Source of the DNA: Psittacicella hinzii
Lineage (GTDB): Bacteria > Pseudomonadota > Gammaproteobacteria > Enterobacterales > Psittacicellaceae
Reading direction: 5' to 3'
Assembly (NCBI RefSeq): GCF_003585935.1
Contig: NZ_NRJG01000035.1
Span: 1-40,339, forward strand
Length of the DNA stretch: 40,339 bases
In this document: piece after piece, positions 1,851 through 28,277 of the stretch
Position numbering within the stretch: position 1 is the stretch's first letter
Layout of the letters: the number at the start of each line of letters is the position of its first letter
The notes under the pieces: generated by a model
The model's input: the letters and a program-made list of their open reading frames with translations, nothing else
Database searches by the model: none
Told to the model about the DNA's origin: nothing
Translations under genes and position numbers: made by a program

Positions 1851-2411
1851 ATGACAAAAAAACCTATGCCTAAAGTAGCAGCTCCCTATACGTTAGGTAA
1901 ACTTGGTATTTTTACGGTTGAAAGTTTAGACATTGAATTTAGTAATGGGGCTGAGCGTACTTACTATCGTCTTGCTTCGCGCAATGATGCTGTAACTGTA
2001 CTTGCAATTTACCAAGAGCAATTAGTTATGGTGCGTGAGTTTGCTGCTGGTACATTAAAATATCAGTTTGGCTTTGTTAAAGGTGGCATGGAGCAAGGAG
2101 AAACTCCTGAACAAGCTGCCATTCGTGAACTAGCTGAAGAAGCAAGTTTTAAAGCTGGTAAAGCTACGCTCTTAAGTTCAACTTTTAGTTCTCCAAGTTA
2201 TGGTACAGGTAAACATCATATTGTATTAGTTGAAGGTTTAGAACCATTAGCTGAACCTATTCCAGGTGATGAACCAGAATCATTAGAGATTAGTTTTTGG
2301 CCAGTAAGTCAAGTAAGTGAACTGTTTAAGCAGGAGAACTTTACTGATGTGTATGCTCGCTTAGCGGTTTACGAGCTGCAAGCTCACTTAGTAAAGACTA
2401 AACATAGCTAA
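1851..2411 (+). CDS. NudE-like NUDIX hydrolase, first copy
   Basis: A 186-residue NUDIX protein close to NudE (ADP-ribose / NADH / Ap3A pyrophosphohydrolase). The N-terminal GKLGIFTVESLDIEFSNG resembles E. coli NudE (FTVESVDLEFSNG), and the GDEPE(S)LE motif near residue 140 is typical of the family. The NUDIX box lies at residues 78-100: G78, E84, R92, E93, L94, E96 and E97 fit G-x5-E-x7-REUxEExGU, but the last conserved glycine is serine (EEASF). The metal-binding glutamates are kept, so activity is likely, perhaps with altered specificity. The start has GAGG 8 bases upstream. A second NudE at 8671-9237 has the intact box and the usual cysQ neighbour, so this copy is the extra, diverging paralog. 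Confidence 0.85.
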   Translation: MTKKPMPKVAAPYTLGKLGIFTVESLDIEFSNGAERTYYRLASRNDAVTVLAIYQEQLVMVREFAAGTLKYQFGFVKGGMEQGETPEQAAIRELAEEASFKAGKATLLSSTFSSPSYGTGKHHIVLVEGLEPLAEPIPGDEPESLEISFWPVSQVSELFKQENFTDVYARLAVYELQAHLVKTKHS

Positions 2412-5145: not shown

Positions 5146-6438
5146 CTAAGCATTACGTTCAGCAAGAATTTGCTGTACGACTTTAAGTCTAGTTTGAATA
5201 ACTTGAGCTTTGTAGTATTGTTTAGCACACATAAAACGTAAGTACTTAGTATCTAAGCCGGCGGTTAAGCTTGAGAGATCAACTACGTTTGTTAGCCAAT
5301 CTTTAAAGTTAAAGATAAATTCTTTTTCATCAAGTTGGCTATGATATTGGCGTAATGCTACTCGATTAAATGAGTGTAAGTATTTAGTGAAATCAACAAA
5401 GTCTCTTTCTTCTTGATTAGCTAAATAGAGTTCGAGTTGCATTTGGATTTGTGCACGGATATGTTCTGGATAATAAAAGGTTAGTATCGGAGAATTATCT
5501 TTGAACAGTGCTTGATCAGCTAATTGATCATCTAATTGATCATCTAATTGATCATCTAATTGATCATCTAATTGATCATCTAATTGATCATCTAATTGAT
5601 CATCTAATTGATCATCTAATTGATCAAAAGTTTGAGCTACTGCTGCGCTTTCTATTTGCTTAGCAGCTGCTTGATCGTCTTGCGATAGATTTAAGTGCTG
5701 TTGGGTATCTTTTGGCTGTGTAAAGTAATTTGGGTACAGATGTTGAGTAATAGCGGTATTGATAGCTAATTGCATACCAATCACTGTACCTAAAGCAGTA
5801 AACTTGAGTAAGTAATAATGCGTTATGTGATACAACTGCCGATAGAATAACTGATGTTTAGCTTGCGACCAAGGGATGCGCGAAATAGTAATCAGTAATC
5901 TATGTCCTAAAGAAGTTAAACTTGGATCTGCAGCAGTAAAGATATTAATCTCTAGTTGCTGTAAATGATTTAACAGTTGGGAAATAGCTACGGCATCTTT
6001 TTCAGGATCAAAAGGGGCTAGCTGTTGGTTAGATGCACTCCACGTTTGGTGGCGTACTTGTTTTGCCGTATATTGATACAGGCAGGCCAGAGCTCTTAAG
6101 CGTTCATTAATTAATTCATAGTGCGCATAATGCTGATGGACAGCAATAGTCGCTAACATGAGTTTGTTAATGAGTTTTTGAGTTTTAATTTGAGTTTTAG
6201 GATGCTGCCAATCTAATCCTAGAAGGCTACTATTTTCCGTATCTGCATACCGAAATAGTGCATTAAAAAGATTGAGTCGACTCACATAACGCGGATTAAA
6301 AATTTTGCCGCATAGAGCATGCATTGCCGGATAACGAGATTGCTCAAGTAATTGTTTAGCTTTTTCTAAATCCGCTGCTTCTTGTTCTAATTGCCAAAGT
6401 GGTAAAGCGCGATAGTAAGTAGTAAGGCTTGAGGTCAT
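5146..6438 (-). CDS. Unknown protein with a (DQLD)9 repeat
   Basis: A 430-residue protein, no signal peptide; AAGGA stands 8 bases before the ATG. Residues 1-240 are helical and rich in Leu, Tyr, His and Gln. Residues 271-306 are nine copies of the tetrapeptide DQLD (the copy nearest the C-terminus reads DQLA), encoded by a 12-bp repeat at 5519-5626, an acidic coiled or disordered linker. A second helical part follows (QIQMQLELYLANQEERDFVDFTKYL, then FNFKDWLTNVVDLSSL). One hydrophobic stretch (FTALGTVIGMQLAINTAI, about residue 213-230) is too polar to be a sure membrane span. No family recognised. Because the repeat is a multiple of three, copy-number change alters linker length without frameshift. 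Confidence 0.75.
   Translation of the reverse strand: MTSSLTTYYRALPLWQLEQEAADLEKAKQLLEQSRYPAMHALCGKIFNPRYVSRLNLFNALFRYADTENSSLLGLDWQHPKTQIKTQKLINKLMLATIAVHQHYAHYELINERLRALACLYQYTAKQVRHQTWSASNQQLAPFDPEKDAVAISQLLNHLQQLEINIFTAADPSLTSLGHRLLITISRIPWSQAKHQLFYRQLYHITHYYLLKFTALGTVIGMQLAINTAITQHLYPNYFTQPKDTQQHLNLSQDDQAAAKQIESAAVAQTFDQLDDQLDDQLDDQLDDQLDDQLDDQLDDQLDDQLADQALFKDNSPILTFYYPEHIRAQIQMQLELYLANQEERDFVDFTKYLHSFNRVALRQYHSQLDEKEFIFNFKDWLTNVVDLSSLTAGLDTKYLRFMCAKQYYKAQVIQTRLKVVQQILAERNA
5519..5626. repeat. 12-bp in-frame tandem repeat, 9 units
   Basis: Nine tandem units of TCTAATTGATCA on the plus strand (the first begins GC), coding DQLD on the minus strand. Eight units (5531-5626) are perfect. 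Each contains the palindrome TGATCA and therefore one GATC, at 12-bp spacing; a further GATC lies just outside at about 5514. Perfect identity implies recent expansion and likely length polymorphism. Confidence 0.95.
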
Positions 6439-7321: not shown

Positions 7322-7759
7322 ATGCAGTATATTGGCAGTTATCATACCGAATTAGCCGAACTTAGTTCGCAAGTAAGCCAAGTAGAAAAAGAAAACTACT
7401 TTAACCTTAATGAAATTGCACAAAAGTTCTCGGTCGATCCTTATTTAACCATTTGTAATTGGTTACAGCAACCAGCAACCTTAGACTTGTTGGTAGCTTG
7501 GGAACAATTACATAATCAGCAGTTTAACTTAGCAGCTTGGGAAAAGATTAAATCATCTGTAGGAAGTAATTCTTTTGCTTTAAGCCCAGTTGCTTGGGTA
7601 AGTTTAACGCAAGCCCAAGGGTTATATTTGCACTCACGTGATCCTAAAATAGTGTTAGCGCATCCGGCTTTAGCCATGGATTTTACGATGTGGATAAGTC
7701 CGAGTTATCGCTTAAAAACCATTCTCGAATATATGTTACAACGCAGCAAGCGTAGCTGA
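7322..7759 (+). CDS. Stand-alone KilA-N domain protein
   Basis: A 145-residue protein matching the KilA-N DNA-binding domain across about residues 26-140: the YFNLNEIAQKF start, an NW(L)...T..L segment, then HPALAMDFTMWISPSYRLKTI (114-134), which is close to the family signature HP.LA..FA.WISP.F. KilA-N proteins are mostly from phages and large DNA viruses and act as DNA-binding or regulatory proteins. Here no phage genes flank it, and it lacks the usual C-terminal partner domain (ANT or Bro-C). GAGG is 6 bases before the ATG. It may be a domesticated phage remnant working as a regulator. The C-terminus RSKRS is basic. Confidence 0.8.
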   Translation: MQYIGSYHTELAELSSQVSQVEKENYFNLNEIAQKFSVDPYLTICNWLQQPATLDLLVAWEQLHNQQFNLAAWEKIKSSVGSNSFALSPVAWVSLTQAQGLYLHSRDPKIVLAHPALAMDFTMWISPSYRLKTILEYMLQRSKRS

Positions 7760-8670: not shown

Positions 8671-9237
8671 ATGACTAATAGTAAACGTACAAAACCACAA
8701 GTAAAAGAGATTCGTCCTCTGGGCAAGCTTGGCATGTTTAGAGTGCAGGCTTTAGACTTAACTTTCGCAAATGGACAAGAAAGGGAGTATTTTCGTTTAG
8801 CGGCTAAACGTGATGCAGTAACTGTAGTAGCTGTAGATGGAAATGACCTTTTACTCATTGAAGAGTTTGCGGGTGGGACTTTAGAGTATGAGTTAGGTTT
8901 TGTGCGTGGTGCAATAGATGAGGGAGAAACTTATCTCCAAGCAGGAGGACGCGAACTGGCCGAAGAAGCTGGTTATGAAGCATCTTCTCTTACTCACTTA
9001 ACTACTATGTACAATTCAACAGGTTATCAAACAGCCAAAATGTACGTGGTAGTGGCTACAGGTTTAAGTGCCTTAGCTCAACGTCCAGAGGGTGATGAAC
9101 CTGAACCACTTGAAATTGTACGTTGGCCATTAACTAAACTTGATGAGCTATTAACTCATCCGCGTTTTCGCGATAGTCGTAATCTGGTGGCATTATATGC
9201 TTTCCGTGATTACTATCATCAATATATGCAGAGTTAA
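8671..9237 (+). CDS. nudE: NudE, ADP-sugar / dinucleotide NUDIX hydrolase
   Basis: A 188-residue protein closely following NudE, which hydrolyses ADP-ribose, NADH and Ap3A to AMP-containing products in the cytosol. The NUDIX box is complete at residues 80-102 (G80, E86, R94, E95, L96, E98, E99, G101, Y102). The family motif EGDEPEPLEIVRWPL near residue 140 matches E. coli NudE (EGDEPEPLPQVRWPL), and the RD(S)RN(L)VAL segment matches EARNVSAL. It is followed 24 bases later by the cysQ homologue, an arrangement I recall from other gammaproteobacteria; both enzymes clear adenine nucleotide by-products. The leader has only a weak Shine-Dalgarno. A diverged paralog is at 1851-2411. Confidence 0.92.
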   Translation: MTNSKRTKPQVKEIRPLGKLGMFRVQALDLTFANGQEREYFRLAAKRDAVTVVAVDGNDLLLIEEFAGGTLEYELGFVRGAIDEGETYLQAGGRELAEEAGYEASSLTHLTTMYNSTGYQTAKMYVVVATGLSALAQRPEGDEPEPLEIVRWPLTKLDELLTHPRFRDSRNLVALYAFRDYYHQYMQS

Positions 9238-9261: not shown

Positions 9262-11937
9262 ATGAATACCTCAAAATTAGCCGCGATTTATAGTCCGGCA
9301 GAATTAGAAAAAGTATTACCCGAACTCTTTAAAAATCAAGTCTTCTTACCTGTATGTCAATTGCTCATTAACGCTGGTGCTGTTGCTACGGCAGTAGGGG
9401 CAGCTGATTTAGCTGTTGACTTAAAAGATGACAATTCAGAAGTAACTTATGTAGATAAGATGCTTTCTACATACTTTACCGAACAACTACCACAGATTTT
9501 TGGGGACTTTGCGATTTCGGAAGAGAATATGGCAGAGTATCCGGATTTTGATTTACAACATACGCGTTGTTGGTGGTTAGTAGATCCGCTTGATGGCACT
9601 AAAGGTTATGCTCAAGGACGTGCAGACTATTGCCACATGCTAAGTTTTATCGATCAAGGACAAGCGTTAATGACGTTTGTCTATGAACCTGTAGCTGGTA
9701 AGCTACACTATGCAGTACAAAACCTTGGCGTGTTTGTCGTAAGTTTAGAGTCTGCGGCTATAACTTATCAAGTGCAAGGACAAGAAGTAAGTGAAGCACA
9801 GTTTGTAAGTGCAGTACGTCAAGCTGGTAGTCAAGCTATGAGCTTAGTACAAGCAAACTACCAAGCAAGCTTTAAATTTAAACGTATAATGCATGCAGAT
9901 GCCGTAAATACGTATGAGTTTTTAGTTTGTTCTGGTGTAGGTAATGTACGTGAGTTTGCTACTAGTGATACTTACATGCAATATCTAACGCAACAAGTAG
10001 CAGCTTACCAAGAGTTAAAGACTCAAGCTTTACAACACTATGCAGCTTATAATCTGGCGTGGAATCAATTTATTACAGATGAGATCTATGCCTTAGAAAA
10101 ACGTCAGGGCTTAAAACATACTCCGCTTTATCAGATTAGCTTTGAAAAAGAAGAAGCTGATGCTAATGCAGTGGGTAATGAAGTCTCTAGTACTAATCCA
10201 GCTGCTACAAGTGCAGCTAACAGTACAAGCGCAGCTGCAAATTCAAATAATGAGTATGTATTTGCTCCGAAAGCAAAAGCTCAAGCTACGAACGTAGAGC
10301 AAACCTCTGATTTAGAAGCTAAAACCGACGAAGCTAAAGTTAAAGAGCTTAAAGAACTTCTAGCAGACTCTCGTCCGCTTGAACAACGAATTGCTGATCT
10401 TAAAATTGCTAAGCCTCGTCTTACTCTTAATCCAGCTTATGCTTCGCTTTACCAGAAGTTTAACCGCCAAGCATTAACTGCAGGTTTACAGTTCTGGCGC
10501 AAGATCTTAACTACAGATAAGCAAGTAGCAAGTAAAGCAGAACTAACTTTCTTAAATAATAGCTATGCTCTTAATGCCTTTAGAAAAGCTTTTGCAGCAT
10601 GGGTAAGTAAATTCGAGCAAAGCCCAGCCTCTACTTTTATCGCTCAAGAAGAGGTTGTAAACTGCGTAGCTCCGCCAAGTGTTTTAGGTAAGTATTTATT
10701 ACAACAATGTGTCTTAGAACTGCGTTGGGAAGATCTCGCTGATATCTATAAGATGCCATTAGATCAAGATACGCAACTAAGCATCTCTTGCCAAAACCAA
10801 ACTGAACTTACAAGTCAGAGTTCGCAAGTAGCTACAAATAAAACTGCTCTGGCGGTTAATGCTGATTTTGCTGAACTTGGTTTAGATATACCTGCATGGG
10901 CATGGGAGTATGAACACTATACCCGCTATCATCATTTCTACTTAGCGGCTTATAGTATTAAACATTTCCCGGCTGCAGCTTATGAACGTCAAGTGCGTTT
11001 ATTAGCTAGTGCCTTTAATCCTCTGTTTGGACAAAGTTTAAACTTAGGAGGCGAACAAGAAGTACCTGTACGTCTAAACTTACAGCACTTCCCGCATTTA
11101 GATGTACTAGCCAGCCACAATAAGCTAGCAGTTAAATATCAAGATGAGTTACTATTAACTTATGTAACTTTAGGTCATAAGGCTGTAAATGAAAGTCTAG
11201 CCAAAAAAATGCAGTATCTAACTACTGAAGAAAAATTCTATCTTACAGTATTAGTACATTTAACCGCTGAACTTGCAGACTTTGCAGCTAAGTATCCTAA
11301 TCCGCACTTTATTCTTGATAAAACTGCCAAACCTGAAGCTTATGCAGCAATTAATCTAATTCAAGGTGCACGTACGCAACAAGCTTTAGGAGTATTTGCT
11401 CTACCTTATCGTGAGGGTAACTTTAAGTTAGATACTATGCATTCGGCAGGAGTAAAAGCAAGTAAAGTGTTTGCTTGTTTATCTGACGGACGTTTAACTA
11501 ATTACTTACTTCCTAATGCTATGAAGATTTGGGACGTAGCTCCAGCGCTAGTTTATGCACAAAACTCAACTAGTCCGCATGCTATGATCTTCAATCTATC
11601 GGATGTAAACCAAGTACCATGGAAGAGAACAAATATTAACTTTAGTAGTGAAGAAGTATATCCATTAATGATGACTGAAGACTATATGTCAATTCCGTTT
11701 ATCTTAGATATACCAACGCTAATGTATTTACAACTTCCGTACTTACTCAACTTCCATAAACCATTAAAAGAGCAAGCTTTAGCTCGTCAACACTATTGCC
11801 AAGCTCATCCTGAAAATGCGCAAGCATTTATGGCTGAACTAGCAACTCGTGAAATGAGTGAAGAAGAGTTTATAGCAACTGGTTTAAATCCAATTATGCG
11901 TCAAGCATGGCAAACCTTTAAAACAACTCTAGCTTAG
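9262..11937 (+). CDS. cysQ: CysQ-family 3'(2'),5'-bisphosphate nucleotidase with a huge insertion
   Basis: An 891-residue member of the inositol monophosphatase superfamily, against about 246 for E. coli CysQ, which turns 3'-phosphoadenosine 5'-phosphate into AMP. N-terminal part: DNSEVTYVD (57-65), SEEN (86-89), WWLVDPLDGTKGY (104-116, first metal-binding aspartates) and IDQGQALMTFVYEP (130-143), all aligning with CysQ. The C-terminal fold motif appears only at 728-763: SAG..AS(K)...LSDGR...NAMKIWDVAP, with D758 as the expected third metal ligand. DPLDG and WD are thus 650 residues apart instead of about 120. The extra part includes a disordered Ala/Ser/Asn-rich linker (300-345), a charged helix (346-383) and unknown helical regions (384-725). 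A 130-residue tail follows WD. The frame is continuous and its codon use matches neighbours, so it is not a sequencing join. Downstream of nudE by 24 bases; it ends before the hairpin at 11987-12014. Confidence 0.85.
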   Translation: MNTSKLAAIYSPAELEKVLPELFKNQVFLPVCQLLINAGAVATAVGAADLAVDLKDDNSEVTYVDKMLSTYFTEQLPQIFGDFAISEENMAEYPDFDLQHTRCWWLVDPLDGTKGYAQGRADYCHMLSFIDQGQALMTFVYEPVAGKLHYAVQNLGVFVVSLESAAITYQVQGQEVSEAQFVSAVRQAGSQAMSLVQANYQASFKFKRIMHADAVNTYEFLVCSGVGNVREFATSDTYMQYLTQQVAAYQELKTQALQHYAAYNLAWNQFITDEIYALEKRQGLKHTPLYQISFEKEEADANAVGNEVSSTNPAATSAANSTSAAANSNNEYVFAPKAKAQATNVEQTSDLEAKTDEAKVKELKELLADSRPLEQRIADLKIAKPRLTLNPAYASLYQKFNRQALTAGLQFWRKILTTDKQVASKAELTFLNNSYALNAFRKAFAAWVSKFEQSPASTFIAQEEVVNCVAPPSVLGKYLLQQCVLELRWEDLADIYKMPLDQDTQLSISCQNQTELTSQSSQVATNKTALAVNADFAELGLDIPAWAWEYEHYTRYHHFYLAAYSIKHFPAAAYERQVRLLASAFNPLFGQSLNLGGEQEVPVRLNLQHFPHLDVLASHNKLAVKYQDELLLTYVTLGHKAVNESLAKKMQYLTTEEKFYLTVLVHLTAELADFAAKYPNPHFILDKTAKPEAYAAINLIQGARTQQALGVFALPYREGNFKLDTMHSAGVKASKVFACLSDGRLTNYLLPNAMKIWDVAPALVYAQNSTSPHAMIFNLSDVNQVPWKRTNINFSSEEVYPLMMTEDYMSIPFILDIPTLMYLQLPYLLNFHKPLKEQALARQHYCQAHPENAQAFMAELATREMSEEEFIATGLNPIMRQAWQTFKTTLA

Positions 11938-14349: not shown

Positions 14350-16500
14350 TTATTTAGCTAGCTGAGAAAAATAATATTTCATATGTAAAGCTAAATTCAT
14401 AAACTGCTGTTGCCAAGGACTAGTTGCATAGAAGAGATTGTGCCAAGGTTTATTAGGACCGGCATAATGTAAAACAAAGAGAGTTCTTTGATCATCTTCT
14501 ACTTGGCAATGACGGAATAGAGGTAGCTCGGATGTATAGTTTAAAGGATACTTATTAATATAGTTAAGTCCTCTATGTAATTGCATCCAACCACTATTTT
14601 CTTGAGCAATAATGTTTAGGAGATCCTGATCTTGGAACAAGGTATCTTGATCTTGATGGATCTGTGCCATGCGTTCTACAAGATAATAAGGTGGGTGCTG
14701 TTTAGCATACCAGTGTTTTAAGTTCCAGAAGATAACACCTGCATTAAAGTAAGTTATGTCGTATAAACTTGCTGGATTAGGCTGACAGAAACGTAAAAAG
14801 TGCTGAATATGTTCTTTGTTTTCTGCTAAATAAGGTTTAGTTAAACAATCATAAGCATATTCATCAGAAGTAGCTGCAAAACACTGCTCTTCAGGTAAGA
14901 AATTACCAGCAAAATCACCTAAATCATTAACGATTAACGTATCTATATCTAGATAAAGGATCTGCTCTACTTCTGGATAGTCTTTAGCAAAGATATCTGG
15001 AATAAACAGACGCGAGAACGTATCAATCGAAATATGTCTCTTATGCTCAAAAGGAAACTGCTCTAAATATTCTTGCATATTAATCAAGTGCACTTTAGAG
15101 CCATCCCAAGTAATACGTTGTTCTAAGTATGCAAGATCTTCTGGATTAAGATCACGATACATAATATAGATATGGTAATGCGTGGTAAGACTGCGATAGT
15201 GCAGTAAACTCTCAATACAAGCTAAGGCACAACCATAGTAAGCTTGGTTAAACGATAAGACAATATGTACGTGATGGGATTGCTCGGTTTGTGTTTCGAT
15301 TAAGCGTTTGTACTCATGGTATTGCACGTAGGCACTACCTGCAGCATTAGGAGTAGCTGGGTAGAACAAATTGAGATAGCGCAAATAATAAAGCGCAAAC
15401 ATCGCTTGTACAGGACTGCAGCTAAGTCCAGGATTAAAGTTCTCAAGGTTACGTTGACTAAAATCATTAACCGTACTATCTGCTCGTAAAGTAAAAAACG
15501 CATTTACTAAGTGCTTGCCTTGTTGGGTGATCCATGAGACTTGTTTACGCAGGTTTTCAAGTTTAAAGGTAGCTGGAGGAGCAACGCTTGCAACTAGATG
15601 TTCAATGGTTAAAAGATAAGGGCTCGGTTTATCTTGTAACGCAGCTGACAGGGCATTGAAAGCCACCAGGTTAGATTTAATCAGGAAGAAATTTAACCAA
15701 TATTGACTGAACGTAGAGGCAAGAAGAGAATTGCTACTTTGCATAAAAAACTCTTGTTCACTATGCAAATAGGCAAGAGCTTTCTTGGCAATTTGGCTAC
15801 CAAATTTAATATTACTAGTAATATTAAACATTCTTTCTACATTTACTCCCTCGTGCCAAGCAGCAAGATTTACATACAATACCCCATTACTTGGAAAGTA
15901 ATTAACATGAGATAAATGCTTGTAAGTTAGCTGTTGAATGGCATAGAGATCGCTGGTACTTAAACCGAGAGTAGGTATAGATTGCCCTTCTTTCGCGCAA
16001 AAGGTAAGCTCTTGATCAGTAAAGTCATAGAAAATAGTTGCATAGTTTACTTCTTCTAACCAAGAGAGATCTTGCGGCACAAGCGTATCGTATCTTACTA
16101 AGAGTAAGTTACGAGCTTGTGGGAAGTTAGCTACTACCTCATCAATTAAAAGTAATTGATATAGAGGATAGTAAACTTGGTAACAATCTGGTAAAAGCGC
16201 AAAATCAATCTCGTGAGCTGTTTCTTGCTCGGCAAGTAGTGTTTGTACTTGTGAGTTTAAATCGTAAATACTGCACTTGATCTCAAGTTCACGTAGCACA
16301 CGGAGTTCATGACTAAGTTGCTCTACGCTCATGCTCTGATCAAAAGTTAGATGCAAGTGTAGCTTGTGTTTAGGAGTATTATTAAGAATACTGGTTATGC
16401 TAACCAGATTTAAATGTTTATGTTCTTGAGTAAAAACATAACCTACATGGATCATCTGGTCTGTAGGTGAGGTATTTACACTCGGTTGTTGGAATAACAT
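14350..16500 (-). CDS. Tandem GT8 family glycosyltransferase, N-terminal domain degenerate
   Basis: A 716-residue protein made of two GT8 (LgtC/WaaJ-like) units. The C-terminal unit (about 405-716) is intact: HIVLSFNQAYYGCALACIESLL opens the fold; YLDID (516-520) carries the DxD that binds Mn and the UDP-sugar; YFNAGVIFWNLKHW (584-597), DQD (624-626) and HYAGPNKPW (678-686) are the other family motifs. The N-terminal unit (about 15-300) keeps the shape (VGYVFTQEHKHLNLVSITSIL, YFPSNGVLYVNLAAWH at 201-216) but has VRYDT (135-139) where DxD should be, so it is probably not catalytic. Cytosolic, probably membrane-associated, transferring hexose to a surface glycan. It is one of three such tandem genes here (see 20982-23252 and 25674-28277). 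No Shine-Dalgarno is seen at the ATG. Confidence 0.88.
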   Translation of the reverse strand: MLFQQPSVNTSPTDQMIHVGYVFTQEHKHLNLVSITSILNNTPKHKLHLHLTFDQSMSVEQLSHELRVLRELEIKCSIYDLNSQVQTLLAEQETAHEIDFALLPDCYQVYYPLYQLLLIDEVVANFPQARNLLLVRYDTLVPQDLSWLEEVNYATIFYDFTDQELTFCAKEGQSIPTLGLSTSDLYAIQQLTYKHLSHVNYFPSNGVLYVNLAAWHEGVNVERMFNITSNIKFGSQIAKKALAYLHSEQEFFMQSSNSLLASTFSQYWLNFFLIKSNLVAFNALSAALQDKPSPYLLTIEHLVASVAPPATFKLENLRKQVSWITQQGKHLVNAFFTLRADSTVNDFSQRNLENFNPGLSCSPVQAMFALYYLRYLNLFYPATPNAAGSAYVQYHEYKRLIETQTEQSHHVHIVLSFNQAYYGCALACIESLLHYRSLTTHYHIYIMYRDLNPEDLAYLEQRITWDGSKVHLINMQEYLEQFPFEHKRHISIDTFSRLFIPDIFAKDYPEVEQILYLDIDTLIVNDLGDFAGNFLPEEQCFAATSDEYAYDCLTKPYLAENKEHIQHFLRFCQPNPASLYDITYFNAGVIFWNLKHWYAKQHPPYYLVERMAQIHQDQDTLFQDQDLLNIIAQENSGWMQLHRGLNYINKYPLNYTSELPLFRHCQVEDDQRTLFVLHYAGPNKPWHNLFYATSPWQQQFMNLALHMKYYFSQLAK

Positions 16501-16989: not shown

Positions 16990-18633
16990 CTAAGCATCGC
17001 CTTTAGCAGCTTGAAGCATTAAGTCAAACTCTTCAGGATTCCATTGAATTGGACGTGGTTGAGTGCTTAACCATTGATAAAAAGCACGACGTAATTCTAC
17101 AAACTTCTCAGGCATTTGTTGAGCTAGATCTTTAGTGTAACCTGGATCAAGTTTTTCGTTATAGAGTTTGATTGGGTTAGATGAACCATCATTGAGGTAA
17201 ATAAGAGCATATTCACCATCACGGATTGCCCATGAACCTTTAGCATTACGTTCGAGGTTTGGGTTGTTTGGAGCTTTATCTGCTTTGTAGGTAATGTAAT
17301 CCCAGTAGCCAGACCAGAATGGCATGTTTTCTTCACTATAGTGGAAAGCTCCAGGACCAGCCCAGTAGAGATATTTGTGTGGAGATTCTTTAGTTTTACC
17401 TGCTAGTACCGGCATAATATCTTTACCATCAAGCTTTAAGTTATAAGGGATTTTAATCCCTGCTAACCTTAAAGAGGTTGGTAGAATATCCATAGCAGAA
17501 ATGAACGTATCATTTACTGAACCAGCCGGAATTAAGCGTGGATAGTAAACAATAAATGGTACATTGAGTGCCCCATTGTGGTACAGACCTTTATAGCTTG
17601 AGTTATTACCATTTAATGGTAATGGCGCTTCGTGTACCGAACCATTATCCGAAAGGAAGAAAATAATGGTATTGTCTAGAGCATTTTTCTCTTTAAGTTG
17701 AGCAATGATCTTACCAATGCCCTCATCGGCAGCATTTAGTGAAGCATAGTATTTGTCAGCTTCAACATTACCGGTGTTGAATTTATCCATGTACTTAGCT
17801 GGTGAGGCTTGTTCGAGAGGAATATGCGGCACACTATAAGCTAAATTAATATAAAATGGTTTATCTCCAGATTGGTCGATAAAGTCCATGGTTTCTTTGG
17901 TGAGGTTATGTGTAGTGTAACCCCATGAAGTTTCTGGTTTATCATTACGCCAGAAAGCTGGAGAGTTGTATAATGCCGCTCCTGAGGCAAAGTAACTATA
18001 CGAAAAATCAAAACCACGATCTTGCGGCGCAAAACCTTTATCAGGGATCGCTGACCAGTTGTCGTGATAGTCACGTGTTTGTAACTCTGGAGAAATGTAC
18101 TTACGACCAATTGAGCGATCGCGATTTACACGGGCATTATGGAACTTCCCAATGTTAGCCGTGTTATAACCGGCAGCTTGGAATAATTCTGGTAAGAATT
18201 TTTGCTCTAAAGGCACTCCAGAAAATGAATCATCATTTCCGTAGATCCCAAACGATCCTGGAGCTTTACCAGTAAAGATCGCTGCTCTTGATGGACCTGA
18301 TACCGCATGCGCCACAAAAGCATTAGTCATTTTTACCCCTTGGGCAGCTAGTTCACTAATGTTAGGCATGGCTTGTTCTGCGGCAGCGATCAGTTTATCA
18401 AGATCGGCTGCATAACGCGGAGCTTGCGGTTTTTGTGCTAGAGCGTTTTTATTAAGCGTAGCGAGGTTAAAGTTGAGTTGCCCGATACCTAAGTCATCCA
18501 TCACAATTACAAGAATATTAGGACGAGAAGGATCGGTTGACACTGCATGCGAGGGAGTTGCTAGCATGGTAGCTGGAGCTACTAAACTCGCAAGAGCTAG
18601 GCATTTATACCATGGCTTTAAACTTAATTTCAT
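16990..18633 (-). CDS. Serine-type periplasmic sulfatase
   Basis: A 547-residue type I sulfatase with a signal peptide (MKLSLKPWYK..., cleavage probably after SHA at 30). The catalytic motif is S112-G-P-S-R116, the serine version of C/S-x-P-x-R; Ser112 must be oxidised to formylglycine. Other features: MDDLG (45-49, calcium ligands D46 and D47), TGKAPGSFGIYGN (121-133), IGKFHNAR (161-168), VPHIPLE (268-274), FLSDNGS (326-332) and YKGLYHNGALNVPFIVYYP (347-365). Substrate cannot be told; glycosaminoglycan or mucin sulfate esters are plausible for a host-associated bacterium. Serine-type enzymes need a radical SAM maturase, and one is encoded just upstream on the same strand (18940-20361). AGGA stands 9 bases before the ATG. 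The 306-base gap to the maturase contains short repeats. Confidence 0.9.
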   Translation of the reverse strand: MKLSLKPWYKCLALASLVAPATMLATPSHAVSTDPSRPNILVIVMDDLGIGQLNFNLATLNKNALAQKPQAPRYAADLDKLIAAAEQAMPNISELAAQGVKMTNAFVAHAVSGPSRAAIFTGKAPGSFGIYGNDDSFSGVPLEQKFLPELFQAAGYNTANIGKFHNARVNRDRSIGRKYISPELQTRDYHDNWSAIPDKGFAPQDRGFDFSYSYFASGAALYNSPAFWRNDKPETSWGYTTHNLTKETMDFIDQSGDKPFYINLAYSVPHIPLEQASPAKYMDKFNTGNVEADKYYASLNAADEGIGKIIAQLKEKNALDNTIIFFLSDNGSVHEAPLPLNGNNSSYKGLYHNGALNVPFIVYYPRLIPAGSVNDTFISAMDILPTSLRLAGIKIPYNLKLDGKDIMPVLAGKTKESPHKYLYWAGPGAFHYSEENMPFWSGYWDYITYKADKAPNNPNLERNAKGSWAIRDGEYALIYLNDGSSNPIKLYNEKLDPGYTKDLAQQMPEKFVELRRAFYQWLSTQPRPIQWNPEEFDLMLQAAKGDA

Positions 18634-18939
18634 AGTATGGATCCTAAAAGTTAGTGGAAAAAGTATAAAAGTTTAAATGAATTAACTTGGCAAAAATAGT
18701 AGAACGATAAACCTATACAATCTGAATAGGTAACGATGAGAATAAGCAATCAGAACAGGCAACAATTAAGGCTGGCAACAATCAGAACAAGTAGCAATCA
18801 GAACAAGCAACTGTCAGAACAAGCTGCAATCAGAACAAGCTGCAATCAGAACAAGTGTAGCTTTATCTCTGCTTGAGATGATACAGAGCCAAGATCTTAG
18901 CTCTACCTTAGTTTTTAAGCCAGCTCTTAATCTAGCGTG
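18634..18939. other. Gap between maturase and sulfatase, filled with short repeats
   Basis: No gene or clear terminator. The middle (18745-18855) is an imperfect tandem array. The sulfatase may be read from the maturase promoter or from a promoter of its own near 18660-18720. Confidence 0.5.
18745..18855. repeat. Imperfect 13-16 bp tandem repeats
   Basis: About six copies of (G)CAATCAGAACAAG. The clearest are two perfect 16-bp units AAGCTGCAATCAGAAC at 18821-18836 and 18837-18852; older copies upstream vary in spacing (GCAATCAGAACAGG at about 18746, CAATCAGAACAAG at 18779 and 18795, CTGTCAGAACAAG at 18811). Confidence 0.75.
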
Positions 18940-20361
18940 CTAAACATATTGCATTATTGCCGCAGCTGGATATCCAGCTTGAATAATAACGCGTAGCTTA
19001 TTCATAACCGGCATAGTATGAGTAAAGAAAGCATAGTAAGAAGGGCATAAATAATTATGTTTATATGTTTGCCCTTCAAGTGTTACTAGACGATGTTTAG
19101 GGCAGCCGCCATTACATAAAGCTAGAACTTGACATTGCTGACATTTAGAGGTGAGTGTTTGTTGTTTAGCTGCACCAAATTTTTCTGCGTTTGCAACAAC
19201 TGTTTGCGCCAGATTAGGTTGAGCAATATTTCCAAGTTTATAACCGGCATACACAAAGTGATCGCAAGCATAGAGATCACCATTAGCTTCAACAATGAGC
19301 GAAGTGCCACAGGTTGGACGATAGACACAATTAGCACTTGGATAGCCTAACCATTGTCCAGTAAGATTATCAAACTCACGGATAAAGATTTGCCCTACAT
19401 CATGTTTTACCCAATAGTCAAAGACCTCAATTAAAAACTCTCCATATCCATGAGCTGGTACACTAAATGGTGCTAACTTAAAGTCAACAGGTGGTTGATA
19501 AAGACCCTCTTGACTATGACTTGGCTCTCTACCTCCACAAGCATAAGGTTGATAGTTAGCTACCTCTACACAAGGAATAAACTGCATATGTTTTACTCCT
19601 AAGTTTTTAAGTGTAAGGTAGGTTTCTAAACCATGTTGCCAATTAGCATCATTTACAACCGTAAGAGTATTGAACTCGACTTGATATTCTTGTAAGAGTT
19701 CAATAGCACGTTTTACTTTGCCATAAGTAGGTTTGCCATTAACAGAGATACGATACTTGTCATGAATGGCTGCACTGCCATCGATTGATAAGCCAATTAA
19801 AAAATTATGCTCTTTAAAGAATTGCATCCATGCACGATTAAAAGCAATACCATTAGATTGCAAAGCATTGTGGATTTGTTTATTGCCGCGATGTTTTTGT
19901 TGCAGAGATACTACTTTGCGGAAGAAGTTTAATCCCATTAAGGTAGGCTCTCCACCTTGCCATGTGAAGTCGATGCGCGAAGCTGGATTTTGTTCGATGT
20001 ATTTACGAATATAAACTTCGAGCACTTGATCTGACATGTGCGGATGTAAAGCTGAAGCTATATTGGCAACTGTATTTGCATTGGCGATAGCATCTGCATT
20101 GGTAACAGAATTAGTAACAGTAGTAGCTGGAGCAACAGTTGTAGCTGAAGTAATAGTATCATCAGTAGTAACAGTAGATACTGCATTAATAGCATCATCT
20201 TGATTTGAGTCACAGCTCAAAGAATTACTCGCCACAGATAGATCTGTAATTTGTTGTGAGGCAAAGAGTTCTTCTTTTTCTAAATAGAAACAATAGGTAC
20301 ATTTAATATTGCACTGAAAACTACTTGGCTTTGCCATGAGATGAAATACAGGAACTTGCAT
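18940..20361 (-). CDS. Anaerobic sulfatase-maturating enzyme (radical SAM/SPASM) with a low-complexity insertion
   Basis: A 473-residue radical SAM enzyme that converts the active-site Ser or Cys of sulfatases into formylglycine without oxygen, in the cytosol before export. FHLMAKPSSFQCNIKCTYCFYLEKEEL opens the protein, with the CxxxCxxC cluster at C17, C21 and C24; FTWQGGEPTLMG (132-143) and LIGLSIDG are typical of anSME. The C-terminal SPASM region has cysteines for two further clusters (YRPTCGTS, DLYACDHF, SKCQQCQVLALCNGGCPKHR, YLCPSY). Between residues about 36 and 107, where family members run almost directly from YLEKE to MSD.VLE.YIR.YI, there are about 70 extra Thr/Ala/Val/Asn-rich residues. 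AGGAGA stands 7 bases before the ATG. The target is very probably the adjacent serine-type sulfatase. A CRP-like site lies about 130 bases upstream. Confidence 0.93.
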   Translation of the reverse strand: MQVPVFHLMAKPSSFQCNIKCTYCFYLEKEELFASQQITDLSVASNSLSCDSNQDDAINAVSTVTTDDTITSATTVAPATTVTNSVTNADAIANANTVANIASALHPHMSDQVLEVYIRKYIEQNPASRIDFTWQGGEPTLMGLNFFRKVVSLQQKHRGNKQIHNALQSNGIAFNRAWMQFFKEHNFLIGLSIDGSAAIHDKYRISVNGKPTYGKVKRAIELLQEYQVEFNTLTVVNDANWQHGLETYLTLKNLGVKHMQFIPCVEVANYQPYACGGREPSHSQEGLYQPPVDFKLAPFSVPAHGYGEFLIEVFDYWVKHDVGQIFIREFDNLTGQWLGYPSANCVYRPTCGTSLIVEANGDLYACDHFVYAGYKLGNIAQPNLAQTVVANAEKFGAAKQQTLTSKCQQCQVLALCNGGCPKHRLVTLEGQTYKHNYLCPSYYAFFTHTMPVMNKLRVIIQAGYPAAAIMQYV

Positions 20362-20981: not shown

Positions 20982-23252
20982 TTATGCTTCGCTGTTATCT
21001 AACTTGGATGCAAGACGAAGTCTCATTTGCTGCGCTAAAGCAAAGAAGAAATAATACCAATCAGCGGTTCTTACTTTAGGAGACATCCAAGGTTTCACTA
21101 AGCCTAAGTAATGCTGGACATAAAGCGTAGATTCTTGAGGATAGAGCGTGTAGTTAGGAGTAAACAGCTGTAACCTTGAAGAAGCTAACTTAAAGTTATT
21201 GTTGTTATAACCTTGCGGTAATGACAAGAAGCCACCATGTGTTTGGGCAAAGAGATTCAACACGTCTTGATCAGGATGAATGATCTCTTCACGTTTTTTT
21301 GCAGCTAGTTGTAATAGATAGTCATCTGCTAAACCTAGTTTACGCCACTGGCGTAAATTCCAGACACACATGCCAGAGTTAAAGTATTGTACTTGGATTA
21401 AGGTTTGTGGCTGGAAAGAAGTGAACTTAGCATAGTGTTCTGCATCTTTTCTACCTTCAGGTTTAGCAACTAGATCCATGCGTAAAGAAATAAAGGCAGG
21501 CTGATCAGGTACGGCAGCGAGTACATATTCTCCTAGATCTATCTCCACGAGATCAGCAAGATCACCTAACACTAAAGTATCACAGTCTAAGTAGATAAGT
21601 TGCTCAACTTCTGGATATCTTTGTTTAAAGATTGCAGGGATCAGTAAGCGCGAGTAAATATCTAAGGTAAAGTGTCCGAATAGTTTAAGCTCATAATGCT
21701 CAAACTCAGCTCTCATATCAATAAACTCAATATCACAGTTTTCTGCTTGGACTCTAGTTCTTAGTTCATGCATTTGCGCATCACTAAAACCTCGCTGTAA
21801 TACATAGAACTGATAACGATTAAAGTCTTGACGACTAAAGAAAATACTCTCAAGACAAGTACGTAAAGGTTTTAAGTATTTAACGTTAGCTGCTAAAACT
21901 AGATGCACCGTACGTTGAGGGGTTAGAGCACGTCGTGCGGCTAAGCGTTGAGTAACTAGATCCGCAAAGTTTAAAACTTCAGCACTAGGAGCTTGAGCAT
22001 AATCATAGACAAACTTACTCTGCCAAGCAAAAGAAGCTAAAGGTAACTCTAAGTTGTTGTAGCTAGTATTAGCTCCTTGTGTAGAAGCATGGCTATTGAG
22101 TTCTGGACTCACATATTGCACTTCAGCTCGAGGATCGATTTGTTGCTTACCATGGGTGAAGTTAGAACTAACCATTAAAGGTAATAGGCTTTTACCTTTA
22201 GTTCCTTTATAGTGTAGTACTAGCTGACGGATTTTTACTTGACTTTTTTGTGCTAAACCTACACCTTGCTGCGGATTACCCATAAACAGATCATAACCTA
22301 CAAGACTGCGTGTATAGTTAGCCATCTCAGCAAGGATATGCGCTCCACAATGTGTACCTATAAGTGTAAGTACATCTGCTACTACTTGCGGAGAATTGCT
22401 TTGACGATAATAATCAAGAGCGATGAGTAATGGTTGATAGAGATTACCTAAAGCAGCTGCATAATCTGTTAGGTAATATTGCACTACTCCAGGTTCAAGG
22501 TAGAACGGAGTCTGATATTGCTGGGTAAAGGCTTGACAGTGTTGCGCTTGGTGATAGAGCTCGTCCTGACTGCGACTCATAAGAGCAAGCTCTAGACTAT
22601 CGTTTTCGAAATACCCTCCAGCTTGTATATAAGCCTCAAGAGTATAGTCACAAGCAATAGAAAAACATATCGGAGCGACTTGCAGAGTATTAAAAGCTTG
22701 TAAGCTATGTAAGACCAAACTATCAGCATCGAGGACAATTAAACGTTCTACTTGTGCATTATGGCGCTGTACTATTGCCGGTACTAGTAAACGCATCACA
22801 TTAGCAGCTACGACCGGACTTACAAAGCGTTTAGCTGCTTGATGTTGACTTTGACTTTGTCGTAAGTGTTGCTGCACATAAGCATAAGGAACACTAGCAT
22901 CGATGATGGTGTAACTTAACTGATATTGCTCTAAGTGCTGCAAAATAGGAGCAAGCATGTTTAAAGTAACACTTTGCTCAATGATGAGGTAAAGATGTAA
23001 AGTAAACTGCTCTGGATGATAGTTGTAGTAGAGAATAGAGTTTAAACAAGCTTTAAGTTGTGTCAAATAATCAGCAGTAAACCACAGTGCTAAATGCTGA
23101 GTCGTAGACTGATTTGCTTTTGGAGCTAGAGAGCTTGCTGATTTTGCAAATTGGGCTACAACTTGCGTCGCAGTTAACTCAGCTGGCACTTCATATAAGT
23201 GCGGCTCAGTATGTAACTGCACAAAATAATTAAAATACGGAAGATCTGCCAT
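20982..23252 (-). CDS. Tandem GT8 family glycosyltransferase with two DxD sites
   Basis: Read from the ATG at 23252 this is 756 residues; a TTG eight codons earlier (23276) is possible but has no Shine-Dalgarno either. The N-terminal GT8-like unit has LIVLDADSLVL with D175-A-D177 and ends in LHYKGTKGKS (about 346-355), a version of the HYxGxxKPW motif. The C-terminal unit has YLDCDTLVLGDL (D556-C-D558), YFNSGMCVWNLRQW (623-636), HPDQD (659-663) and QHYLGLVKPW (713-722). Both units therefore keep the metal/UDP-sugar ligand, unlike the gene at 14350. It could add two sugars in succession, or one unit may have become structural. It is separated from the maturase gene by a terminator and has its own promoter region. 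Residues about 385-445 are a linker. Confidence 0.88.
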   Translation of the reverse strand: MADLPYFNYFVQLHTEPHLYEVPAELTATQVVAQFAKSASSLAPKANQSTTQHLALWFTADYLTQLKACLNSILYYNYHPEQFTLHLYLIIEQSVTLNMLAPILQHLEQYQLSYTIIDASVPYAYVQQHLRQSQSQHQAAKRFVSPVVAANVMRLLVPAIVQRHNAQVERLIVLDADSLVLHSLQAFNTLQVAPICFSIACDYTLEAYIQAGGYFENDSLELALMSRSQDELYHQAQHCQAFTQQYQTPFYLEPGVVQYYLTDYAAALGNLYQPLLIALDYYRQSNSPQVVADVLTLIGTHCGAHILAEMANYTRSLVGYDLFMGNPQQGVGLAQKSQVKIRQLVLHYKGTKGKSLLPLMVSSNFTHGKQQIDPRAEVQYVSPELNSHASTQGANTSYNNLELPLASFAWQSKFVYDYAQAPSAEVLNFADLVTQRLAARRALTPQRTVHLVLAANVKYLKPLRTCLESIFFSRQDFNRYQFYVLQRGFSDAQMHELRTRVQAENCDIEFIDMRAEFEHYELKLFGHFTLDIYSRLLIPAIFKQRYPEVEQLIYLDCDTLVLGDLADLVEIDLGEYVLAAVPDQPAFISLRMDLVAKPEGRKDAEHYAKFTSFQPQTLIQVQYFNSGMCVWNLRQWRKLGLADDYLLQLAAKKREEIIHPDQDVLNLFAQTHGGFLSLPQGYNNNNFKLASSRLQLFTPNYTLYPQESTLYVQHYLGLVKPWMSPKVRTADWYYFFFALAQQMRLRLASKLDNSEA

Positions 23253-23784
23253 AGTAAGATCTAGAAAAATACTCAAACAAAGTGATACACCACAAAGTTA
23301 GAGCTTGAGAAAAGAAAAAACTGTTGCAAAGAATACATAGAATGCTTATTCTGCAAACAGAGTAATGAAAAGAAGCGATACGTAAAAGTAAATTTTAACT
23401 TAAATAGCTTGGAAGTTGCTTATTAATTATGTATAGATTTATGCCATGTAAATCTATCTCATACAAATTTATTCTGTACACACTTAAATTTATTTCACAC
23501 AAACCTACTCTGTAGCAAGCGCTAAGGCATAAACTTGTTCACAAGTGCTGCTAGTTCTTTATTGCTTTTTTGCTTCAGCTAATAATTCTTTACAACTTCA
23601 GTTACTATTTAAACTACTTACAAGTAATAGTAAACACTTACTAATACTGTTTACCGAGAGATACAAAGAGATTTTTGTAACTTTTTGCATTTTTGTACTT
23701 GAAAAAATGCAAATATATCCCTATATCTAAATTAGAAAAAAGTATTAAACATTAAGATAATTCATAATTACCTCAAACAACACA

Positions 23785-25673: not shown

Positions 25674-28277
25674 CTAATGATACACCGCAACAGTACGTTG
25701 GGTAAACGGCACATATGCCTTATCGTTTTTACTTGGTATCGTTAAATCTTTACCTGTGATGATATCTTTCATGCGCAGGCTTAATCTCCAGAAGAAAAGA
25801 TGCCATTCTGCTGTTGCAATAAACGGATTATTCCACGGTTTTTGTGGTCCAGTGTAATGCATGATATACAGCGGGCAACGTTCTGGATAGGTAGTGTAGT
25901 TAGGTTTAAACAGACGTAATTGGGCATCTTCAACCGGTCCGCGTAAGTTATTTAGACCTTGGTGTAGACGGAAGTAGCCACCATGCTGTTTAGCGAACAG
26001 ATTCAACATATCTTGATCTGGAAAAGCAAAGCTCATGTGCTGACGCATTTGCTCGAGTAAGTGGAATTGCGGCAACTCAAGTTCACGCCAGCGACGTAAA
26101 TTCCAAATAATCACTCCAGAATTAAAATACTCAATATCGTAAATGGTTTGCGGATTAGCATTAGTAAAGCGTAAGAAGTACGAGCGCTTGTCATCAATAT
26201 CATGATCTACAGGCCAATCATCTTGTAAGCGAGCATATAGATCAATGTCTGGTGTCGCACCAAAGATCTTATCTCCCAGATTAGCAACTGCAGTATCACC
26301 CAGATCATGCTGAATTAATAGATCTACGTCGAGATAAGTAACTTGTTCAACCTCTGGATAGTATTGCGCAAAGATATCCGGAATAAATAAACGTGAGTAG
26401 ATATCGATCGTAAAGTACTGTTTCGTAGTTAGATCTGGATACTTACTTAAGTACTCTTGCATATTGAACGGACGTATTTCACAATTACTCCAAGCGGCAC
26501 GCTGTTGTAATTGCTCTAAGTCTGCTTGTTCTATGTCGCGATAGAAAAGATGGACGATGTATTTATTATGCGGTTTACGATAAAAATACAGACTCTCAAG
26601 ACAAGTGTTTAGAGCCGTTAAGTAATCTTGGTTTGAGCAAAACACTAAGTGCGTGGTGATTTGCGGTTCAACGGGATTTTCTTCGAGTAAACGTTTGTTG
26701 TGCACAAGCATATCTGCAACAAACTGCACATCTTGCGTTTGTGGTACTTTGGCTAAGAAGTACTCGCGTTTAACTTGATAGATAATGCCAGGACGATAGA
26801 CTTCGCCTAATTGCGGATCAGTCACCCGTTTGGCATCTTTTCCAGCATAGTGTAAGGCTAAAACTGGTGCATATTCATCGCGATTACGGCGATATACATT
26901 TACTCCCTTAGCTCCTCTTTCAAAGTAATAACCTTGATGCCAGCGTACCATATTTAAGTCTGGATGGAAAATATTAGCTCCCAGAGCGATCATGAGTAGC
27001 GAGAGATATTCGGCTACCGGATCTACTGCTGCGCCATACAGATAGTTACGTAAACCTTGTTGTAACAAGATAGTCAGATCAGAGAAATAAGGTTTTAAAA
27101 TCGAGAGCCGAAAACCAGTGATGCCCGGTAAAACATAATGCGGAGACTTAAAGAAGGTAAAGTGCTCTTGTGCTTGAGCATTAAGAGCAGCTAATTCTGC
27201 AGCACTACGTGTATCTTCGGCTGTATGTATAGGAGCGGATGAACTATTGCATGGTACAAGGCTTGGATCGGTAGTAACACTAATAGCTCGCTCTAAAGAG
27301 GTTTCAAAGATTTTGGTGATGTCATAGAGAAAGAGAACATCCGCATCTGCAAGCAAAATAAAGTCAGCATGCGGAGAAATACTATGAATCACCTCAGGAA
27401 CTAGTAAGCGTATGAGTTTAATAGGCTCATAGGCCTCAAAATTCTGACGTTGTAGTTTTAAAATTGCATGTTGTAACAACTCATAATCATGTTGATGACG
27501 ATAAACGATCTTCGCAGGATCATAAGTTTGATAGAGTTGGGCAAAATTAGTCTCTAACCAAGCTAGAACAGCTGGATCAGCAATGGTTTGTCCTGTGCTT
27601 TGATATGTAGAGGAAGCAGAAATAGCTTTAGTAAAGGTCTGTTGTTTTGCTTGCGTGCTGGCTTTACTTTTGCTTTTGCTCTTAGTTTTTCTTTTACCTT
27701 TGCTTGAGTTAGTAGTTGTAGCATTACTTTGCTCTGCTTGCTTTTCATGCATTAGAGATTGTAAATTCTGATTATGTTGCACCCATAAAGGGTTGCTTTG
27801 TTCGAGTTGCTGAGCTAAATGCTTTTGGAAATAAGCGATACGCTCTGCATGACTGGTAATATGACTAGTTACACAGTCTAACGAACCTTGGATATTAACA
27901 ATGTTATAACTAACTGCAGCATCTTGCTTCATATATTTGCTTAATGGAGTAAAATCTGCAAGCGTTAAAGAATCATCAATTAAAAAGTACAGATGAATGG
28001 GTGTGTCTAAATTATCAATACGATTATCAATAATTGAAATCACACTTTGTTCGAGTAAATCTAAGTAACTATGACTACACACAAATCCCACATGACAAAT
28101 ATTTGGGTTTGTATTAGCAGTCGAATCCTCGCTACCTTGGATTTGCTCAATAATTTGTTGCTCGATCGGGCAAATGTAGCTTTCAATATGTTGATAAGCT
28201 GATAACTCTGGACTAAATGGCTCGCTCGTAGTTATTAGCTCATACTCATTGAAAGGAATATGTGGTGAGTTGAACAT
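25674..28277 (-). CDS. Tandem GT8 family glycosyltransferase, longest of three, with a Lys/Ser linker
   Basis: An 867-residue protein with two GT8 units. N-terminal unit: CHVGFVCSHSYLDLLEQSVISI (61-82), LLADADVLFLYD (308-319, DxD at D311/D313) and LALHYAGKDAKR (473-484). It is interrupted by a basic low-complexity stretch, SSKGKRKTKSKSKSKAS (191-207), which could bind phospholipid or polyanionic glycan. C-terminal unit: LVFCSNQDYLTALNTCLESLYFYRK (544-568), YLDVDLLIQHDLGD (648-661, D650/D652), YFNSGVIIWNLRRW (717-730), FPDQDMLNLFAKQHGGY (752-768) and MHYTGPQKPWNNPF (806-819). Both units look competent. It shares the order and spacing of motifs with the genes at 14350 and 20982 and closes the cluster. 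Its stop is only 17 bases from the terminator stem. No clear Shine-Dalgarno at the ATG. Confidence 0.9.
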   Translation of the reverse strand: MFNSPHIPFNEYELITTSEPFSPELSAYQHIESYICPIEQQIIEQIQGSEDSTANTNPNICHVGFVCSHSYLDLLEQSVISIIDNRIDNLDTPIHLYFLIDDSLTLADFTPLSKYMKQDAAVSYNIVNIQGSLDCVTSHITSHAERIAYFQKHLAQQLEQSNPLWVQHNQNLQSLMHEKQAEQSNATTTNSSKGKRKTKSKSKSKASTQAKQQTFTKAISASSTYQSTGQTIADPAVLAWLETNFAQLYQTYDPAKIVYRHQHDYELLQHAILKLQRQNFEAYEPIKLIRLLVPEVIHSISPHADFILLADADVLFLYDITKIFETSLERAISVTTDPSLVPCNSSSAPIHTAEDTRSAAELAALNAQAQEHFTFFKSPHYVLPGITGFRLSILKPYFSDLTILLQQGLRNYLYGAAVDPVAEYLSLLMIALGANIFHPDLNMVRWHQGYYFERGAKGVNVYRRNRDEYAPVLALHYAGKDAKRVTDPQLGEVYRPGIIYQVKREYFLAKVPQTQDVQFVADMLVHNKRLLEENPVEPQITTHLVFCSNQDYLTALNTCLESLYFYRKPHNKYIVHLFYRDIEQADLEQLQQRAAWSNCEIRPFNMQEYLSKYPDLTTKQYFTIDIYSRLFIPDIFAQYYPEVEQVTYLDVDLLIQHDLGDTAVANLGDKIFGATPDIDLYARLQDDWPVDHDIDDKRSYFLRFTNANPQTIYDIEYFNSGVIIWNLRRWRELELPQFHLLEQMRQHMSFAFPDQDMLNLFAKQHGGYFRLHQGLNNLRGPVEDAQLRLFKPNYTTYPERCPLYIMHYTGPQKPWNNPFIATAEWHLFFWRLSLRMKDIITGKDLTIPSKNDKAYVPFTQRTVAVYH

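Follow-up and report, generated by a model that had tools for sequence, protein, structure and literature searches.

How does a housekeeping phosphatase build one metal site when the motifs expected to supply its ligands lie several hundred residues apart? The question is raised by a gene in a 40,339-nucleotide stretch of DNA (the window, meaning the whole stretch that was analysed) from Psittacicella, a genus of bird-associated bacteria. Through comparison with the other genomes of the family, we propose that the gene encodes a putative CysQ-type phosphatase of the IMPase family whose fold is interrupted by 312-494 inserted residues, predicted to be mostly helical and specific to the genus, a reading in which we have moderate confidence.

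The long cysQ gene and its setting

The first-pass annotation had described a CysQ-like protein with widely separated motifs, and its reading frame, motif and coordinate claims were exact on rechecking. DPLDGTKGY occupies residues 108-116 and WD residues 757-758 of the window protein. The distance from D108 to W757, put at about 650 residues against about 120 in E. coli CysQ, measures 649 residues, compared with 121 from D83 to W204 in the K-12 enzyme. The gene and its upstream neighbour are:

8671..9237, + strand: nudE (ADP compounds hydrolase), NCBIfam NF008736 at 186 bits, above cut-off
9262..11937, + strand: long CysQ-like gene, 891 aa

The family sample consists of four Psittacicella genomes that are 87-92% complete (87% for the window genome), and absences from them are provisional for that reason. 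The long form (726-891 aa) is present in all four, with orthologues of 767, 726 and 763 aa in P. gerlachiana, P. hinzii and P. melopsittaci, respectively. An assembly or frame artefact is therefore ruled out, and aligning the homologues, as the first-pass annotation had advised, established that the insertion is lineage-wide. Outside Psittacicella, CysQ was encoded by ORFs of 247-370 aa among the matches listed when 148 genomes of the order were surveyed. The paralogous SuhB-like IMPase of Psittacicella is of ordinary length (ORFs of 283-294 aa). In every segment of the long CysQ pN is lower than pS, with pS near saturation.

The nudE-cysQ context was described as kept, and it is: nudE lies immediately 5' of the long cysQ in 4/4 Psittacicella genomes, with a spacing of 24 bp in the window. 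Because many other Enterobacterales also have nudE upstream of cysQ, we regard the long gene as orthologous by position to their nudE-linked cysQ. A second NudE homologue is encoded at window positions 1851-2411 and is 44% identical to that at 8671-9237; this second NudE-like gene occurs in all four genomes and is near the long cysQ in three.

Other genes of the window include three GT8-family glycosyltransferase-like proteins of 716-867 aa (14350-16500, 20982-23276 and 25674-28277), in which the recognised domain is C-terminal and some 400-520 N-terminal residues are without assignment. A 430-aa ORF with an (LDDQ)n tandem repeat and no confident family match is on the minus strand (5146-6438), as is an arylsulfatase-like gene (16990-20361) adjoining an anaerobic sulfatase-maturase (radical SAM) gene. 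Finally, a small ORF at 7322-7759 (+) encodes a KilA-N domain, which is common in phages.

The N-half and the presumed C-half of the fold

The N-terminal part of the protein is divided as follows:

9334..9744, + strand: N-half of the IMPase/CysQ fold, residues 25-161, holding E87/E88, D108, L110 and D111
9583..9609, + strand: DPLDGTKGY metal-site motif, residues 108-116
9745..9870, + strand: extra hairpin-helix-strand, residues ~162-203, missing from CysQ in the alignment with the CysQ family
9871..9927, + strand: residues ~204-222, FKFKRIMHADAVNTYEFLV, placed by the order of elements and by the end of the VIA-align match at model residue 214

By sequence, residues 25-161 are securely assigned to IMPase/CysQ. 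They match PF00459 with an E-value of 9.6e-23 (81.5 bits versus a gathering cut-off of 27), although this match spans only profile positions 10-180 of 271. The best NCBIfam model is TIGR01331 (CysQ), at 73.2 bits over positions 5-172 of 250; the window protein misses its curated cut-off of 228.8 bits because the match covers only part of the model. Similarly, hhalign of the N-half against the CysQ family alignment gives 99%, with similarity ending at about residue 161. E87/E88, D108 and D111 are unvaried across the four species.

In P. hinzii, AF2 predicts the N-half with pLDDT mostly 85-98 to about model residue 210, and the secondary structure of the ~40-residue addition at 162-203 is likewise confidently predicted. 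When residues 25-214 were compared with known structures by VIA-align, IMPases were matched at Z ~18 (for example, 2bji at Z 18.4, rmsd 1.9 over 142 residues). The FKFKRIMHADAVNTYEFLV segment is probably the equivalent of the two strands ahead of the substrate-side loop, with the insertion beginning after it; this placement follows the order of elements, and the sequence match itself is not significant.

IMPases are recognised by the motifs DPxDGT, a Glu, G[ST]AA and WDxA; in Mycobacterium tuberculosis SuhB and human IMPase the metal ligands are the Glu, the two Asp of DPxDGT and the Asp of WDxA (Asp235 and Asp220, respectively) (PMC2080633). All of the ligands listed for these two enzymes have invariant counterparts in the four Psittacicella species, the last of them in the C-terminal part of the protein:

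11428..11697, + strand: presumed C-half of the IMPase fold, residues ~723-812
11497..11544, + strand: TNYLLPNAMKIWDVAP, 16 invariant residues including WDxA (757-760)
11698..11934, + strand: helical C-terminal extension, residues 813-891, past the end of E. coli CysQ

This region is conserved much as the N-half is. No invariant run in the protein is longer than TNYLLPNAMKIWDVAP, and the top two conserved 15-residue windows of the whole sequence are 100-116 and 745-762. Invariant columns make up 55% of the C-half (~720-812) and 47% of the N-half, compared with 0-28% in the insertion; dN is 0.16-0.24, 0.20-0.31 and 0.42-0.82, respectively, so that the insertion evolves fast. WDVA at 757-760 is unvaried in the four species, and each protein has one WDxA, in the same alignment column in all four. 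A second copy of the C-terminal motif near residue 210, which would have spoken against a split fold, is absent; there is no second WDxA anywhere in the protein. When columns of the region after residue 225 were shuffled, WD.A appeared in all four rows in 7 of 20,000 trials. Of the G[ST]xx motif of the substrate loop, expected some 25 residues ahead of WD, there is only a degenerate form, HSAGxKxS, with G730 placed 27 residues ahead of W757.

Homology searches with the C-half were negative. The similarity of the segment flanking WDVA to CysQ is not significant; neither hmmscan of the C-half against Pfam and NCBIfam nor hmmsearch recovered a significant CysQ match; and the hhalign score was equalled by 18 of 100 column shuffles. 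A MAFFT E-INS-i alignment that paired WD with WD was discounted, since shuffled controls do likewise in one third to over half of cases.

Closure of the alpha-beta-alpha-beta-alpha fold was approached by structure prediction, with the 726-aa P. hinzii orthologue modelled from an alignment in which the CysQ rows were cut to the N-half, so that no CysQ rows covered the C-half. Full-length CysQ rows were not used: default MAFFT puts the C-half of CysQ next to the N-half, and a manual alignment of the WD would have been circular. An AF2 model of the window protein from the four orthologues alone was discarded (mean pLDDT 42). In the P. hinzii model, in which WD is 591-592, VIA-align matches to IMPases reach residues 593-600 in about 12 of the 50 rows listed. 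These residues pair with IMPase residues ~189-265, depending on the entry, around the WDxA helix (225 in 2hhm and 1imc); the untrimmed rows report just the two end residues of each alignment, and the register shifts by several residues. Structure prediction, the check advised by the first-pass annotation, did place the WD segment of this orthologue as in IMPases, but with a local pLDDT of ~23-38, and the model's placement of this segment where crystal IMPases have the WDxA helix is suggestive only.

Alternatively, CysQ could be the N-half alone, with residues ~223-891 an unrelated genus-specific domain, the WD coincidental and the N-half co-opted in a fold that does not close. The negative sequence tests of the C-half, the end of profile similarity near residue 161 and the missed TIGR01331 cut-off are all what this would predict. 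However, half an IMPase loses a metal ligand and half of its sheet, and yet the metal residues of the N-half are invariant; WD.A recurs in four of four proteins far beyond the shuffled expectation, within the most conserved block; and AF2, given no CysQ rows for the C-half, sets the WD segment at the expected site, at low confidence. We consider this alternative unlikely. The conservation of WDxA, the slow evolution of the region and the low-confidence AF2 placement suggest instead that residues ~723-812 are the missing IMPase half, and a fold split by a very large insertion yet closed is likely, not proven.

The insertion and other enlarged enzymes

Between the N-half and the presumed C-half lies the following region:

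9928..11427, + strand: Psittacicella-specific insertion, residues ~223-722, predicted mostly helical
10159..10296, + strand: Ala/Ser/Asn-rich low-complexity stretch, residues ~300-345, window species only
11092..11292, + strand: helical segment, residues ~611-677 (residues 445-511 of the AF2 model of P. hinzii)

From the order of elements, we infer that the insertion is bounded by the FKFKRIMHADAVNTYEFLV strands on one side and the HSAGxKxS segment on the other. Its length is ~494 residues in the window protein and 357, 325 and 312 residues in the other three. The first-pass annotation's central claim of a CysQ fold split by more than 500 residues survives as the best reading, with its figure lowered. 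The large helical regions that it described agree with the AF2 prediction. The disordered Ala/Ser/Asn linker is present in the window protein but is a feature of one species rather than of the insertion in general, being gapped out of the rows of the other three in the alignment. The helical segment at model residues 445-511 has pLDDT mostly of 65-95 per 10-residue block, low at the first few residues. The C-terminal extension (75-79 residues, 19% invariant) is predicted with pLDDT mostly 78-96 from about model residue 660.

No relatives of the insertion were recovered: neither Pfam nor NCBIfam gave a match at curated cut-off, and the PDB, 369 class-level genomes and 394 order-level genomes, all searched outside the family, yielded none. 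Further homologues were likewise absent from genome contigs beyond the three Psittacicella species and from viral contigs. Three candidates were rejected, namely matches to Pfam TelA (E 0.006, 16 bits versus a cut-off of 30, absent from the orthologues) and to a phage late gene activator in the PDB (E 0.4), both attributed to chance, and a match in genome G714 (E 0.005), which is a 47-aa frame containing a stop and was treated as noise.

The first-pass annotation had suggested that the insertion could couple pAp removal to a second enzyme, a scaffold or a regulatory domain, and these results bear on that. A second module with a function of its own, whether as an enzyme, a pAp sensor or a scaffold for protein docking, would suit the better conservation of residues 555-719 (28% invariant, and partly confidently helical) and the excess of pS over pN throughout; its site by the substrate-side beta9-alpha6 loop (PMC2080633) would also suit coupling to the phosphatase. 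Set against this are the lack of any Pfam, NCBIfam, PDB or outside-family relative, the variability in length and sequence of most of the insertion (0-9% invariant columns) and the occurrence of insertions in other core enzymes. The suggestion finds no support in the searches, and we judge such a module rather improbable.

The enlargement of other enzymes was assessed in a small, not genome-wide, sample of 30 ORFs (29 random, one swapped by hand) together with the window genes. Most matched core enzymes are of ordinary length (IleS, SerA, CysE, RsmH, PheS, PheT and NudE), and MurE, MurG, RNase II and RecJ exceed the length of their models. Three of the four are located as follows, each position being preceded by its locus identifier:

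L106:7099-8973: MurE, insertion in 4/4 Psittacicella, absent from the other Enterobacterales tested
L106:14943-16199: MurG, insertion in 4/4 Psittacicella, absent from the other Enterobacterales tested
L093:1268-3715: RNase II, core enzyme with an extra internal or N-terminal segment

MurE ORFs are 610-628 aa in the four Psittacicella genomes versus 492-530 aa (one 575) in others, with matches breaking at ~273-390; MurG ORFs are 416-435 aa versus 356-408 aa elsewhere, with a break at ~175-230 and one internal stop in two of the four Psittacicella matches. As these four enzymes are also oversized, and MurE and MurG genus-wide, the long CysQ looks like the extreme of a wider tendency rather than a recognisable fused enzyme, and the MurE and MurG insertions point to a lineage tendency toward loop expansion. 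It is also conceivable, although doubtful, that helical segments have been added across the lineage (most in CysQ, but also in MurE, MurG and RNase II) for a shared function such as the construction of enzyme assemblies or the control of activity, in which case the CysQ insertion would be a new pAp-responsive or assembly domain.

Predicted function and known systems

E. coli CysQ hydrolyses pAp with Mg2+ (PMC9757072). On sequence evidence, the long CysQ would be the one candidate pAp phosphatase of CysQ type that the four genomes yielded: an NrnA-type pApase was not found in them, the single DHH protein being of RecJ length and identified as RecJ. An ACPS-family protein is encoded in all four, below the Pfam cut-off in one. 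pAp arises from acyl-carrier-protein synthase, and this would be its source here, since no match to PAPS reductase was found in the four Psittacicella genomes. A pseudo-enzyme that keeps the fold for another role and has lost pAp hydrolysis would account for the unusual residues around the site (KGY in place of KEF after DPLDGT, WDVAP in place of WDTAA/G and the degenerate GSSLK), but every direct metal ligand is invariant and the genomes hold no other pAp phosphatase candidate that we found, which makes it very unlikely.

Most likely, the long CysQ is a phosphatase that acts on pAp and carries a helical accessory insertion; for the substrate and the part played by the insertion we infer the following. 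The beta9-alpha6 loop of IMPases touches the substrate (PMC2080633), and the insertion would sit past the strand leading into this loop, after which the chain would return so that the WDxA helix completes the fold. In the usual three-metal mechanism, the N-half would hold Mg2+ through E87/E88, D108, D111 and the residue 110 carbonyl, and the C-half through D758; the metal would activate the water that removes the 3'-phosphate from adenosine 3',5'-bisphosphate (pAp), yielding AMP. The insertion would most probably act as an accessory domain, a cap or a packing element, where the active site opens or where subunits meet, rather than as a second enzyme, and would have grown by the lineage tendency that also lengthened loops in MurE and MurG.

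If a housekeeping enzyme can accommodate an insertion of up to twice its own size between the two parts of a single metal site, it offers a strong natural test of the limits of fold interruption. If MurE, MurG and RNase II have been enlarged by insertions of this kind genus-wide, Psittacicella would be a good bacterial case for weighing neutral against functional expansion. For annotation, the long CysQ is a protein in which pipelines recognise only half an enzyme.

Relative to known systems, the long CysQ resembles E. coli K-12 CysQ (TIGR01331) in the T/D metal loop, SEE and DPLDGTK of its N-half and in the WDxA downstream, and it shares the nudE linkage of cysQ in many Enterobacterales. Unlike CysQ (~246 aa), it extends to 726-891 aa through the insertion, the small extra hairpin-helix and the C-terminal extension; its C-half is too diverged to score, it carries the KGY and WDVAP variants, and it falls under the equivalog cut-off. 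With the wider IMPase family (PF00459, including SuhB, human IMPA1, HisN and yeast Hal2/Met22) it shares the fold of residues 25-214 and the metal-site residues, but the IMPases of the PDB, among the matches listed, have chains of at most ~360 residues and none with an insertion this large. It also has parallels in MurE and MurG of Psittacicella, each a conserved enzyme interrupted by a genus-wide internal insertion; in those enzymes, unlike the long CysQ, the insertions are of ~60-120 residues and both halves are still easily recognised.
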